Positions 8,638 through 33,823 of a DNA stretch of 48,840 nt are shown here, piece after piece (within the stretch, counting starts at the first letter, position 1; every line of letters starts with the position of its first letter). Made by a program: the position numbers and the translations under genes. The stretch is taken from assembly GCA_030057915.1 (NCBI GenBank), contig JASGUC010000057.1:1-48840 (forward strand), in the 5' to 3' direction. The notes beneath the pieces are model-generated. The model was not told where the DNA came from, did not search any database, and worked only from the letters and a program-made list of their open reading frames with translations. Source of the stretch: Pseudomonadota bacterium. Its GTDB lineage: Bacteria; Desulfobacterota; Syntrophia; Syntrophales; UBA8958.

Positions 8638-8747
8638 CCCCATGTCGTTATAGCAAGGCAGGGTTTTGCGATTGACGCTATGATTTGCGATTCGGACGCC
8701 TGACCGTCGGGCGTCTTTCGCTTGGGAAAGGAGGATCGGAAGCATCC

Positions 8748-9713
8748 ATGACCGACAAAACGGATTTAAACAGGATTTACGACGTAATCATCGTCGGGGG
8801 AGGACCGGCGGGCTACACCGCCGGGCTCTACGCCTCCCGCGCCGGACTCGCCTCGTTGCTTTTCGCCGGGGCCTCCACGGTCAGCCAGATCACGGTGACG
8901 GACCTGATCGAGAATTATCCCGGCATCCCGGATGGGATAAACGGCTTCGAGCTTATGGAACGATTTCAGCGGCAGGCGGTCAAGTTCGGCCTGGAAGTGG
9001 TCGCCGCCGACGCGACGACGCTGGAAAGCCGTCCCTACGAGGGGAAGGCGCTCTGGATGGTCAGGGCCGACAACCTGTCCTACCAGGCCCGGGCCGTCAT
9101 CATGGCCACCGGGGCCTACTGGCGCAAGCTTGGCGTTCCCGGGGAGGAGGAATTCGCCGGCAGGGGGGTTTCGTATTGCGCCACCTGTGACGGGCCATTT
9201 TACCGGAACCGCGAGGTTGTTGTCGTGGGCGGCGGCAATACCGCCGTGCAGGAGGCGATCTTCCTCACCCATTTTGCCGCGAGGGTGACCATGGTCCACC
9301 GCCGCAACCGCTTCCGGGCCACCGGCATCCTCTCCCAGCGGGCCCTGGCGAACCCGAAGATCGAAACGGTTTGGAACAGCGTGGTGGAAGAGATCGGAGG
9401 GGACAGCGGCGTGGAATGGGTCAGGATCAAGGATCTCCGGGACGGGGCCACGCGGCTGCTTCCGGCGTCCGGGATATTCATCTTCGTGGGTCTCCTGCCC
9501 CAGACCGATCTGGTGGCGGGCCTGGCGGCGAGAAAAGAGGACGGCGCCATAATCGTGGATCGGGAGATGCGCGCCTCCGCCCCCGGGCTCTTTGCCTGCG
9601 GAGACTGTATCGACAAGTCGCTCCGCCAGGTCATCACGGCCTGCGGCGACGGGGCCACGGCCGCCTATGCCGCCCAGTTGTATGTCGAGGAATACAAGGG
9701 CGAGGCCTACTGA
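8748..9713 (+). CDS. trxB: thioredoxin reductase
   Basis: FAD-dependent reductase of 321 residues that passes electrons from NAD(P)H to thioredoxin in the cytoplasm. Seen: FAD-binding GGGPAGYTAG at 17-26, the redox-active pair Cys144 and Cys147 in VSYCATCDGPF, a second dinucleotide motif GGGNTA near 162, and the C-terminal FACGDCIDKSLRQV typical of the family. ATG 8748 lies 9 bp after a strong AAAGGAGG. The stop is followed at once by the GTG proposed for lgt, so the two are co-transcribed. A small hairpin GACGCC/GGCGTC (8695-8715) precedes the ribosome site and could be a weak leader structure. Length and motifs are standard. Confidence 0.95.
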   Translation: MTDKTDLNRIYDVIIVGGGPAGYTAGLYASRAGLASLLFAGASTVSQITVTDLIENYPGIPDGINGFELMERFQRQAVKFGLEVVAADATTLESRPYEGKALWMVRADNLSYQARAVIMATGAYWRKLGVPGEEEFAGRGVSYCATCDGPFYRNREVVVVGGGNTAVQEAIFLTHFAARVTMVHRRNRFRATGILSQRALANPKIETVWNSVVEEIGGDSGVEWVRIKDLRDGATRLLPASGIFIFVGLLPQTDLVAGLAARKEDGAIIVDREMRASAPGLFACGDCIDKSLRQVITACGDGATAAYAAQLYVEEYKGEAY

Positions 9714-10547
9714 GTGGAAGAACCGCTTTTCTTCTGGCAGCACCTCCCTGAACGGATGAGCCCCGTGTTCCTGGAGTTCGGTTCCTTCCAGGTGCGTTAT
9801 TACAGCCTCATGTATCTCGTCGCCTTCGCCTGCACCTATTGGCTCGCCGGCTACCGGATCAGGGACGAGAAATATCCCTATGCCATGGAGACGATCCAGG
9901 ACATCATGATCTGGATGATCCTGGGTCTGATCCTCGGGGGCCGCCTCGGTTACGTCCTGTTCTACAATGGCGGCTATTATCTCCAGCATCCCTGGGAGAT
10001 CTTCCTCCCCTTCGACTTCTCCCAGGGCGTCCGTTTCGTGGGCATCAGCGGCATGTCCTTCCACGGCGGGGCGTTGGGGGCGCTGGCCGCGGCGATAATC
10101 TTCTGCCGTCGTCGCGGCCTGGACTTCTGGCGGTTGGCGGATTTCTTCTCCCCGGCCATACCCCTGGGATACACCTTCGGCCGCATCGGCAATTTCATCA
10201 ACGGCGAACTCTACGGACGTCCCACCGACATCCCCTGGGGCATGTATTTCCCCCTGGATTCGGAAGGGTTGTTGCGCCATCCCTCGCAACTCTACGAGGC
10301 CTTTGGAGAGGGAATCCTCCTGTTTGTCGCGCTGTGGTTCTTAAGAAAGAGAAGCCCGTTTGACGGGTTTCTCCTCGCCGCCTATCTCATCGGCTATGGT
10401 CTGATACGTTTCTTCATCGAATTCTTCCGGCAGCCCGACATCCAGATCGGCTACCTGTGGGGCTTCCTTACCATGGGCCAGCTCCTCTGCCTGATCATGG
10501 TCGGCGGCGGGGTGGGGATCATGCTTTACAGAAGCGCCAAAAGATAA
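9714..10547 (+). CDS. lgt: prolipoprotein diacylglyceryl transferase
   Basis: Inner-membrane enzyme that transfers diacylglycerol from phosphatidylglycerol to the lipobox cysteine of prolipoproteins, the first step of lipoprotein maturation. The 277-residue product has several hydrophobic segments and the family signatures HGGALGALAA and GRIGNFINGELYGRPT, which contain the essential His and the conserved Arg/Asn region. GTG 9714 abuts the trxB stop; ATG 9756, which opens MSPVFLEFGSFQVRYY, resembles the usual family N-terminus and may be the true start (263 residues). Translational coupling to trxB is likely. Confidence 0.93.
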   Translation: MEEPLFFWQHLPERMSPVFLEFGSFQVRYYSLMYLVAFACTYWLAGYRIRDEKYPYAMETIQDIMIWMILGLILGGRLGYVLFYNGGYYLQHPWEIFLPFDFSQGVRFVGISGMSFHGGALGALAAAIIFCRRRGLDFWRLADFFSPAIPLGYTFGRIGNFINGELYGRPTDIPWGMYFPLDSEGLLRHPSQLYEAFGEGILLFVALWFLRKRSPFDGFLLAAYLIGYGLIRFFIEFFRQPDIQIGYLWGFLTMGQLLCLIMVGGGVGIMLYRSAKR

Positions 10548-10600
10548 TATGGAAGGCTAGGCGGCGCTCCGGGAGAAGCGTCCGGCGAGGCTAGAGTTGC

Positions 10601-10839
10601 GAGGCCTCTGAAAAACTCCCTCCATATCCCCCATGGCCATGCCGGGGGAAGCGGGAATACGGTGTTTTCAAGGCGCTCCGCCCGGGCCTTTGCCAGGCTG
10701 ACGGGAAAGCGTGGATTTTCGGGTGAAGTCTTCTGGATGCCCGCCAGGGGATGGCGGGAATGACGGATGGGGGTTGCCGGATTCCCGCTTTCGCGGGAAT
10801 GGCGGAAGGAAGCGCTCGAAGCGATTGTTCAAAGGCCTC
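10601..10839. repeat. GAGACC-family inverted-repeat element, copy A
   Basis: A 239-bp intergenic unit begins GAGGCCTCTGAAAAAC and ends with the near-complement GTTCAAAGGCCTC. Inside are GGAATACGGTGTTTTCAAGG (near 10650) and a palindrome ATTCCCGCTTTCGCGGGAAT (near 10780). These words recur in the other copies at 17838, 31870, 33597 and around 36850. It occupies most of the gap between lgt and the probable selenoprotein gene, which otherwise shows no gene. Confidence 0.7.
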
Positions 10840-10933
10840 GTTTCGTAAATGCGTCGTTGGGGCCTTGCCACGCGGGAGTAATCATGACAAGGCTGAGGCC
10901 GTTCAAACTTGCAAGTGAACTCAGGAGGATGCC

Positions 10934-12268
10934 ATGGGTAAGAAATTGATCGTTGTGGGCGCCGGCGCCGGCGGCGGCTCCGTAGCCGCCGAGGCCAGGA
11001 GGAGGGACCCGAGTCTGGAGATAACCATGATAGAACAGGGGCCCCATGTAGCCACCGCCGCCTGACCGATGCCCTATTACATCGGCGATGTAATCAAGGA
11101 CGCGAGAAAACTGACGGCCCGGACTCCGGAAAAGTTCCGGGAAGGGGGAATCGAAATCATCATCGACAACGGCGTCGCGGAGGTGGACGAACGGCGTCAG
11201 GAGGTGATCCTGGCGGACGGAAAGGCCCTTCCCTATGACATCCTCGCCCTCGGCACGGGGACGGAGGCCCTGCGGCCCGGAATCCCCGGGGAAGACCGGG
11301 AAGGGGTGTTTCTGCTGAGAAAGCTTACCGACGCCCTGACGATCAAAAGCTACCTGGAAGCGACCGGTTGCCGGCGGGCCATCGTCATCGGCGCGGGGTT
11401 CATCGCCATGGAGGCCTGCGAGGCCTTCGTCACCCGGGGCATCGAGACGGAAATGATCCATCGGGGCAAACTCCCCGTCGCCCGCTGGGATGCCGAACTC
11501 TCCTCGGCGCTCCTGGAGGAGATCAAGCGCCGGGGCGTGATCTTTACTTCCGAAACGACGCTGACCTCCATCGTGGAGGGCGCCGCCTACCGTCTCCGGC
11601 TGAACACCAACCGCGGCCCCCGGGAGGCGGATATAATCCTGATTGCCACCGGGGTCCGGCCCGACACCAGGCTCGCCCGGGCGATGGGTCTTACCATCGG
11701 CGCCTCCGGGGCCATCGCCGTGAATTTCTCCCAACGCACCTGCCGGGAAAACGTCTATGCCGCCGGGGACTGCTGCGAATCCTACCACCGGGTGAGCAGA
11801 CGATGGGTCAACATCCCCCTGGGCGATATCGCCAACAAGCAGGGCCGGGTCGCCGGCAGCAACATCGGCGGCACGCCCCGGATCTTTCCCGGCGTCGTCG
11901 GGGCCCAGTCCTTCCGGATCTTTTCCTGGGAGGCCGCGGCGGCGGGGGTGACGGAACGGGAAGCGGCGACGGCGGGATTCCACCCCATAAGCGACGTTTT
12001 TTGGGGCAATGCCACCGCCGGTTCCATGCCGGGGCCGAAGAAGATCGGCCTGAAACTCATCGCCGACCGGGCCACCGGCCGCCTCCTTGGGGCCCAGGCG
12101 GTGGGGGAACAGCGGGTCGTGGGCCGGATCAACACCCTGGCGGCGGCCCTCTGGGCCGGCCTCGCCATCGACGAGCTTGGCTATATCGATCTGGCCTACT
12201 CCCCCCCCTTCAGCGGCGCCTGGGACGTCATCCATCTGGCGGCCCAAAACCTGCTGAGAAAGATGTAA
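10934..12268 (+). CDS. probable selenocysteine-containing CoA-disulfide reductase-family flavoprotein
   Basis: One frame from ATG 10934 (AGGAGG at 10923-10928) gives 444 residues broken only by a TGA at 11063-11065, codon 44. Upstream it encodes a family FAD site (KKLIVVGAGAGGGSVAAEAR) and MIEQGPHVATAA; downstream it continues at once with PMPYYIGDV. In CoA-disulfide reductases, NADH oxidases and NADH-dependent persulfide reductases, the catalytic Cys lies exactly here, before LPYY. The TGA therefore probably encodes selenocysteine. The rest is intact: NAD site VIGAGFIAMEA, YAAGDCCES with IPLGDIANKQGRVAG, and the dimer motif YSPPFSGAWD. Expected role: NAD(P)H-dependent reduction of CoA-disulfide, persulfide or a related substrate. 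A truncated reading from ATG 11069 would lose the FAD site. A base error changing TGC or TGT to TGA is the main alternative. Confidence 0.82.
11066..11094 (+). promoter_or_regulatory. bacterial SECIS-like hairpin after the in-frame TGA
   Basis: Directly after the TGA, a perfect 8-bp stem ATTACATC (11076-11083) and GATGTAAT (11087-11094) closes a GGC loop. The loop starts 18 nt after the TGA and begins with G, matching what is known of bacterial SECIS elements (loop about 16-37 nt from UGA, G at the loop start). A competing stem CCGATG/CATCGG (11066-11071 and 11080-11085) is also possible. Part of the match could come from the conserved coding residues YIGDV. Confidence 0.65.
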
Positions 12269-12350: not shown

Positions 12351-13289
12351 ATGAATGTGTTCGGCTGGGCGGCCTTTGCGGTCCTCTTTCTGGTCATGAT
12401 CTTTCTGGACCTCTTCGTCGCCCACAGGAAGAACGATAAGATCGAGATCCGGGACGCCCTGAGGTGGACGGGGTTCTGGGTGGGCCTCGCCTTGGCCTTC
12501 GGCGTCGGCATCTACTATTTCCAGGGTCGGACCAAGGCCCTGGAGTATCTGGCGGGCTATCTCCTCGAGTACTCCCTGAGCGTCGATAACCTCTTTGTCT
12601 TTCTCATGATCTTCTCCTACTTCTCCGTCCCCGACAAGTACCAGCACAAGGCCCTCCTCTGGGGAATCGTCGGCGCCTTGGCGATGCGGGCCCTGTTCAT
12701 CGGCGCCGGCGTCGCCCTAGTAACGAAATTCCACTGGCTCATCTACCTCTTCGGCGTCTTTCTCATCTATACCGCCTTCAAGATGGCCCGGGGCCACGAT
12801 CGGGATATCCATTTGGAGGACAATCCCGCCCTCCGTCTTCTTCACAAATTGATCCCGGTCACCGCCGACTACGGAAGCGGGAAATTCTTTGTCCGCATCG
12901 ACGGCGCGCTCCACGCCACGCCGCTGTTCGCCGTCGTCCTCGTCATCGAACCGACGGACCTGATGTTCGCCATCGACTCGATCCCGGCCATCCTCGCCGT
13001 CACCACCGATCCCTTCATCGTTTACACCTCCAATGTCTTTGCCATCATGGGCCTGCGATCCCTCTTCTTCGCCCTGGCGGGCCTGATGCGCCTCTTCCGC
13101 TATATACGCCACGGATTGACGGCCATCCTGATGTTTGTCGGCCTCAAGATGCTCCTCCAGGATCTTTTCCATGTCCCCATCGGCTGGTCGCTGGGGATCA
13201 TCGCGGGAACCCTGGCGATAGCCGTCATCGCCTCCGTCCTACGTCCCGAAAGGATCCCGGCGGAGGTCTCGGCGGATCCGGACCGATGA
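12351..13289 (+). CDS. TerC/Alx-family integral membrane protein
   Basis: Multi-pass inner-membrane protein of 312 residues in the TerC family, whose members are linked to tellurite resistance, manganese homeostasis and metal supply to exported enzymes. About eight or nine hydrophobic segments are visible, with the family's acidic residues within them: FLDLFVAHR, YSLSVDNLFVF and EPTDLMFAIDSIPA. The spacing of about 80 bp after the selenoprotein frame and the 4-bp ATGA overlap with the next gene suggest one operon. I see no yybP-ykoY manganese riboswitch in the short leader. Family is sure, substrate not. Confidence 0.9.
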   Translation: MNVFGWAAFAVLFLVMIFLDLFVAHRKNDKIEIRDALRWTGFWVGLALAFGVGIYYFQGRTKALEYLAGYLLEYSLSVDNLFVFLMIFSYFSVPDKYQHKALLWGIVGALAMRALFIGAGVALVTKFHWLIYLFGVFLIYTAFKMARGHDRDIHLEDNPALRLLHKLIPVTADYGSGKFFVRIDGALHATPLFAVVLVIEPTDLMFAIDSIPAILAVTTDPFIVYTSNVFAIMGLRSLFFALAGLMRLFRYIRHGLTAILMFVGLKMLLQDLFHVPIGWSLGIIAGTLAIAVIASVLRPERIPAEVSADPDR

Positions 13290-33392: not shown

Positions 33393-33823
33393 GGGGCGGA
33401 CCGGGCGAAGGCGGACAAGCCAAGGAGAGGCCCCTGAAAACGACCTGTCTTGTCATGCCGGGCCCGACCCGGGATCCAGAGGATGCCCGAAAACGCCGGA
33501 GGCCCGCTTTCGCGGCAATGGCGACCGTTTTTCCGTCATCCCCGAATGGCTCGATAGGGGAGATGACAACCCCTCTGGTTCCCGCCAGGAGGTTGCGAGA
33601 CCTGTGAAAATCCACGATTTCCTGTTGCCCCGGCAAAATCCGGGGTCGGGAAGACCTTGAAAACACGGTATCCCGGCTGCCCCCGGGATGACGATAGGGA
33701 CCCGGAAACGGAATATTTCAAAGGTCTCTCTGCGGCGATGACGGCAGGGGGGGCTGGCGCCCCGCTTTCGCGGGAATTGAGGAAAGGGGTTTTCGCGGCG
33801 ATTGTTCCCAAGGTCGCAAAGAA
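33393..33823. repeat. intergenic repeat cluster including GAGACC-family copy D (33597-33728)
   Basis: This 430-bp gap holds no gene. It contains CATGCCGGGCCCGACCCGGG (near 33454), two CCCGCTTTCGCGG palindrome words (33502 and 33768) and, at 33597-33728, a 132-bp unit starting GAGACCTGTGAAAAT and ending ATTTCAAAGGTCTC. The unit's middle carries CCTTGAAAACACGGTATCCC, the inverse of the word in copies A and C. Confidence 0.65.

Follow-up and report, generated by a model that had tools for sequence, protein, structure and literature searches.

Selenocysteine (Sec) forms of FAD-dependent enzymes related to CoA-disulfide reductase (CoADR) were first described in 2006, when a Sec 'NADH oxidase' was reported from Geobacter metallireducens (PMC1794560). 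In 2008, ocean metagenomes added one Sec NADH oxidase (PMC2398784), and the form appears in reviews from 2022 and 2026 as an FAD-dependent oxidoreductase (CoA-disulfide reductase) under the accession WP_011365774.1 with the motif UGxP (PMC9312934, PMC13188914). At the family level the Sec form is already known, as a prediction, since 2006; the novelty implied by the original prediction for the present locus is accordingly weaker than was stated there. The 2006 selenoprotein list for Syntrophus aciditrophicus contains no such protein (PMC1794560), and a literature search returned no Sec persulfide reductase and nothing on Syntrophus in that role.

The window analysed here is a stretch of 48,840 nucleotides from a draft genome (G000; 64 contigs, estimated completeness 100%). 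On its forward strand, positions 10934–12268 form a frame of 444 codons that ends in TAA and, when read with TGA as a residue, has as its sole in-frame stop the TGA at codon 44 (11063–11065, forward strand), in the context PHVATAA-U-PMPYYIGDVIKD. An AGGAGG ribosome-binding site, read from the sequence, lies 5 nt 5' of the ATG (10923–10928, forward strand). With a probability of about 0.95 on the sequence evidence, we propose that this gene encodes a selenoprotein, an FAD-dependent member of the superfamily that includes CoA-disulfide and persulfide reductases, in which UGA is read via a SECIS element. A plain ORF caller would truncate such genes: the ORF list gives 11069–12268 as an ORF (ATG start, MPYYIGDV...), and starting at this first ATG after the UGA yields a 399-residue protein without the FAD-binding start or the active-site residue. 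The description of a single TGA in an otherwise intact 444-codon flavoprotein, with AGGAGG and ATG upstream in frame, was borne out: there is one stop, and the domain matches run over the full length.

A search of 197 related genomes returned orthologues of 50–71% identity, of which most contain a single TGA and a smaller number contain no TGA; 394 genomes drawn from across the phylum supplied more distant homologues. Fourteen loci came from named genomes; 13 of these are close relatives, mostly Syntrophaceae, Syntrophales or other Deltaproteobacteria MAGs. Among the 213 homologues left after removal of near-duplicates, the redox column holds UGA in 137, Cys in 76 and no other residue; UGA loci were over-fetched on purpose, so that 137/76 is no frequency. 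The UGA homologues, most of them without other lesions, are spread over many genera and families, extending the single reference accession of the cited papers to a broad family of 137 UGA sequences. One orthologue fragment (G149:C222:1595-2677) carries three in-frame TGA codons and is either degraded or poorly assembled.

In a tree built with residues 40–58 left out, the window gene belongs to a clade in which the motif UPxPYYIGDV predominates (clade A) and inside which Cys forms are nested. Its sister, clade A', has the motif U[E/S/L/D]xPYYIGDV and the same downstream hairpin as clade A. The UPxPYY subfamily is common in Syntrophales-like bacteria.

These comparisons bear on two rival readings. 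A Cys enzyme inactivated by a nonsense mutation, or misread in sequencing, might be suspected, as UGA is one base from TGC or TGT and the assembly is a draft of 64 contigs. However, the same TGA is found again in many independent genome assemblies and is thus neither chance nor read error; 137 non-identical homologues have UGA at this codon and the remainder Cys, most without further lesions, and the hairpin downstream is conserved with compensatory changes (see below). The comparative data refute both pseudogene and sequencing error, to which we assign a negligible probability, and the original argument against a pseudogene is upheld by the lack of random damage in the homologues and by UGA in 137 of them. 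The second reading takes the UGA as a true stop, with the ATG at 11069, two codons further on, restarting a separate 399-residue protein (the listed ORF 11069–12268, MPYYIGDV...) and leaving a truncated enzyme. This ATG is not conserved, being replaced by Thr in many UGA relatives (UPTPYY in 18, UETPYY in 10), the N-terminal FAD-binding half is still conserved in frame, and a restart leaves the hairpin and the U/C pattern unexplained. On the comparative data it was rejected, and its chance of being right is just as slight.

Decoding of the UGA as Sec is predicted from a putative bacterial SECIS hairpin at 11076–11094 (forward strand), in which 11076–11083 pair with 11087–11094 to form an 8 bp stem closed by the apical loop GGC (11084–11086); the mRNA after the UGA reads CCGAUGCCCU-AUUACAUC-GGC-GAUGUAAU. 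The bSECIS model allows a loop of 3–9 nt with a G in its first two positions, a stem of 4–16 bp and a distance of 16–37 nt after the UGA, and it requires an MFE no higher than -7.5 kcal/mol (PMC13188914). With a 3 nt loop beginning with G, an 8 bp stem, a spacing of 18 nt after the UGA and an MFE of -10.8 kcal/mol, the hairpin falls within all of these published constraints. Its single-sequence energy is only moderately better than that of shuffled sequences (z of -1.69, with 13 of 200 as good); the case for the hairpin rests on conservation. All eight pairs form in 88/88 close (clade A) UGA relatives and are kept in only three of the 29 close Cys relatives of the clade. Changes on both sides of the stem occur at three pairs among the UGA relatives, the covariation score was reached by none of 500 shuffles, and pairing is lost when the stem partner is slid. 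Codon usage shows a constraint on the RNA as well as on the protein: the Val codon is GTA in 87/88, against 11% of the Val codons in the remainder of these genes, and the Asp codon is GAT in 88/88 (51% in the remainder). The Gly codon of the loop, by contrast, varies freely in its third base (GGT 44, GGC 32, GGG 9, GGA 3).

In some Cys forms (L124, L035 and L067) the hairpin persists whole or as a close remnant, as expected of recent Sec-to-Cys changes. The Cys (TGT) member L124 (G013:C1:655948-657270) has a complete SECIS-like hairpin and seems to have changed from Sec to Cys recently; its genome encodes a Sec copy (L021) as well.

The window's genome contains the full set of selA, selB, selC (tRNA-Sec) and selD, with SelA, SelB and SelD all over their profile cut-offs and a tRNA-Sec (anticodon UCA) scoring 77 bits. 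These genes and TGA/Cys pairs in related genomes were the checks suggested with the original prediction, and both turned up; together with the conserved hairpin, they strongly support its proposal of a probable selenoprotein. SelD of this genome (G000:C26, L017/L170) is itself a UGA gene, with an in-frame TGA in GAGUACK, presumably at the Sec/Cys position of its active site. SelA was present in all 42 UGA genomes checked and tRNA-Sec was seen in 39; the three without it (G097, G115 and G177) are drafts, 78–90% complete. SelA and tRNA-Sec are both absent from one Cys-form genome (G010, 97% complete). Most of the Cys-form genomes checked retain the Sec machinery, so the choice between U and C does not simply follow its presence. 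Nine genomes (G059, G079, G084, G088, G095, G104, G122, G154 and G051) have, beside a tRNA-Sec gene of 73–78 bits, a second and weaker match that exceeds the Rfam cut-off (53–60 bits); it may represent either another tRNA-Sec or an atypical tRNA-Ser.

Insertion of Trp or Cys at the UGA by near-cognate or suppressor decoding would fit the restriction of the column to Cys as the sole alternative residue. Against this stand the full Sec machinery of the genome, the UGA gene for SelD, the bSECIS-type hairpin at standard spacing and the use of TGA as the commonest stop among the long frames of the window, and we consider such decoding very improbable. Most neighbouring genes end in TGA, and this ordinary use as a stop elsewhere in the window rules out a genome-wide reassignment of UGA.

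The protein predicted with Sec at codon 44 matches Pyr_redox_2 (Pfam) over residues 4–285 and Pyr_redox_dim over residues 329–430, and the Thermus NADH-dependent CoADR (PDB code 6ruz) aligns with residues 1–439. These full-length matches span the sequence on both sides of the UGA, indicating that the two halves belong to one protein. An AlphaFold2 model (mean pLDDT of 95.6) superimposes on the CoADR of Pyrococcus horikoshii with a TM score of 0.95 according to Foldseek. Codon 44 lines up with the redox Cys in every PDB homologue among the matches listed; this agreement and the restriction of the column to U or C confirm the earlier claim that the TGA replaces the redox-active Cys. Sec44 is followed by Pro, at a position where Gly is usual in the wider family (CGxPY). 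The next Cys is Cys146, with no CxxC or CxxxxC partner for Sec44. The homologue alignment was examined for a resolving Cys that pairs with Sec, and neither Cys280 nor Cys281 tracks Sec: Cys280 is near-invariant in every clade, in Cys forms too, whereas Cys281 is frequent in Sec and Cys members of clade A alike. No C-terminal rhodanese domain was found with Pfam, the protein ending after Pyr_redox_dim.

The best NCBIfam match is TIGR03385 (CoA-disulfide reductase) over residues 4–437, scoring 360.1 bits, below the equivalog cut-off of 578.8. The C-terminal Tyr422, which corresponds by residue offset to Tyr419' of the Staphylococcus aureus CoADR, is kept in 116/116 clade A members. The equivalent of Tyr361' (in an xYYPG loop), located by alignment, motif and residue offset, is Ser364-Met365 in the window protein. 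This position is not Tyr in 115 of the 116 clade A members, Sec and Cys alike, which typically have Ser/Ala/Pro followed by Met/Leu, and it is Tyr in 71/97 homologues outside the clade. Mutant structures have been deposited in the PDB for both tyrosines (4eqr, 4eqs and 4eqw, with Tyr361' mutated in 4eqr and 4eqw). We presume roles for both in CoADR in line with the PDB titles, and a literature search found no relevant open paper on CoADR Tyr361/Tyr419. With the Tyr361' equivalent missing from 115/116 members, CoA-disulfide reduction by the Sec flavoprotein is uncertain. The assignment to the CoA-disulfide reductase family thus needs qualification: the superfamily stands, the equivalog does not (360 versus 578.8 bits, Tyr361' equivalent missing), and the name 'CoA-disulfide reductase' appears to fit at the superfamily level only.

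Among characterized structures, the closest resemblance is to CoADR (S. aureus, 1yqz; P. horikoshii, 5l1n and 4fx9; Thermus, 6ruz), with a full-length fold at TM scores of 0.91–0.95, one redox residue at the corresponding position (Cys43-type), the Tyr419' equivalent kept and no rhodanese domain; the differences are Sec in place of Cys, Ser-Met in place of Tyr361' and the score under the TIGR03385 cut-off. The persulfide reductase of Archaeoglobus fulgidus (6pfz) shares the FAD core and the single active-site residue, but persulfide reductases of this type (Npsr) are defined by a C-terminal rhodanese domain (PMC7969121), which the window protein lacks. NADH peroxidase and water-forming NADH oxidase (1npx and 5er0) share the fold and the position of the single redox Cys, but at lower identity (∼22–27%). 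Compared with the G. metallireducens form, the protein belongs to the same superfamily (COG0446/TIGR03385), has Sec at the redox-Cys site and likewise comes from the former Deltaproteobacteria, but, judged by the published motif, it differs in having UPxPYY (UPMP in the window protein) rather than UGxP. The sampled UGxPYY and UGxPYN sequences lie in other clades, and the UGxPYY hairpin differs in its loop, which lies ∼22 nt after the UGA and is mostly RGGY. Clade A is thus set apart by the UPxPYY motif, the missing Tyr361' and a hairpin unlike that of the sampled UGxPYY clade.

The protein might also be a selenoprotein that acts chiefly as an NADH oxidase or peroxidase rather than as a disulfide or persulfide reductase. 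The family is labelled 'NADH oxidase' in the literature, the Npsr of A. fulgidus shows NADH oxidase activity (PMC7969121) and the Tyr361' equivalent is missing. The nearest folds and sequences are, however, those of CoADR and persulfide reductases, and the neighbouring trxB suggests thiol chemistry. Moreover, the site that we take to be that of the NADH-peroxidase His10, near the N-terminus, holds no His: it is Ala12 in the window protein and Ala in 85/87 clade A UGA members. Syntrophales are anaerobes, which also speaks against such a role, and we regard it as rather unlikely.

In the reductase mechanism that we favour, SelB with Sec-tRNA-Sec would bind the hairpin at 11076–11094 and UGA 11063–11065 would be translated as selenocysteine, so that the full FAD enzyme of 444 residues is made. 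NAD(P)H would reduce FAD and FAD the single active-site Sec44, whose selenolate could then attack a disulfide, persulfide or polysulfide; the mixed selenenyl-sulfide so formed would be resolved by a second hydride. As there is neither a second redox Cys by the Sec nor a rhodanese domain, the likely path runs from NAD(P)H through FAD and Sec44 to the di-, per- or polysulfide. The codon, the Sec machinery, the SECIS, the fold and the position of Sec44 are seen in the sequence, whereas we infer the dimer and this electron path, and the catalytic path is modelled on the superfamily; the substrate is presumably a small molecule with a di-, per- or polysulfide bond, whether linked to CoA or not.

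More distant Sec homologues fall into two further clades. Clade B (U[S/A/G]xPYY[V/I]G) has a different, covarying hairpin with an 8 bp stem (CGUCGGCA/UGUCGACG) and a 4 nt loop, mostly RGGY, ∼22 nt after the UGA. Sec paralogues of this clade (L150–L163 and L205–L217; ∼34–40% identical, motif U[S/A/G]IPYYVG) are found both within the order to which the window belongs and in other parts of the phylum, and some genomes have one together with a clade A gene. Clade C (L218–L221) comprises sporadic UGxPYN Sec forms within an otherwise Cys group (CGMPYN). Well-supported branches force at least seven U/C changes in the careful tree and 12 in a larger, quick tree. Cys lineages lie between A/A' and B in the best trees, and a tree holding these Sec groups together is not rejected (p-AU of 0.149); Sec may therefore have originated separately in A/A' and in B. 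Sec and Cys members of clade A occur within one genome in G023 and G013, and Sec members of both A and B in G006, G015 and G037. Such close Sec and Cys enzymes, side by side in related bacteria and even in one genome, are good natural material on what selenium buys a one-residue flavin disulfide reductase.

The gene order trxB–lgt–Sec flavoprotein gene is conserved in relatives. In the window, trxB (thioredoxin-disulfide reductase; TIGR01292 over cut-off) occupies 8685–9713 and lgt (prolipoprotein diacylglyceryl transferase; TIGR00544 over cut-off) 9714–10547, both on the forward strand; they were found at 30 and 39, respectively, of 42 relative loci, counts that are minima, many of these loci having only 1.5 kb of flank. 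A TerC/Alx-family membrane protein (12351–13289, forward strand; TIGR03718 over cut-off) follows the gene and is present at a minority of the relative loci (at least 6/42). A functional link with thioredoxin reductase is suggestive only. We put forward tentatively, as possible but short of probable, that the UPxPYY and A' clades form a lineage that gained Sec independently and has a SECIS design of its own, and that the loss of Tyr361' in UPxPYY marks changed chemistry, namely that of a selenium-dependent per/polysulfide or protein-disulfide reductase which, in anaerobic syntrophs, is functionally tied to the thioredoxin reductase encoded next to it.

A scan for promoters and terminators around the gene gave no informative signal. 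Between lgt and the gene lies a spacer of 386 nt (10548–10930 in the window), where many relatives have a shorter one (∼60 nt in L023). The window's spacer carries the inverted repeat ATTCCCGCTTTCGCGGGAAT near 10781–10800, possibly a dispersed repeat; a copy of the surrounding pattern with three mismatches lies at 33498–33520.
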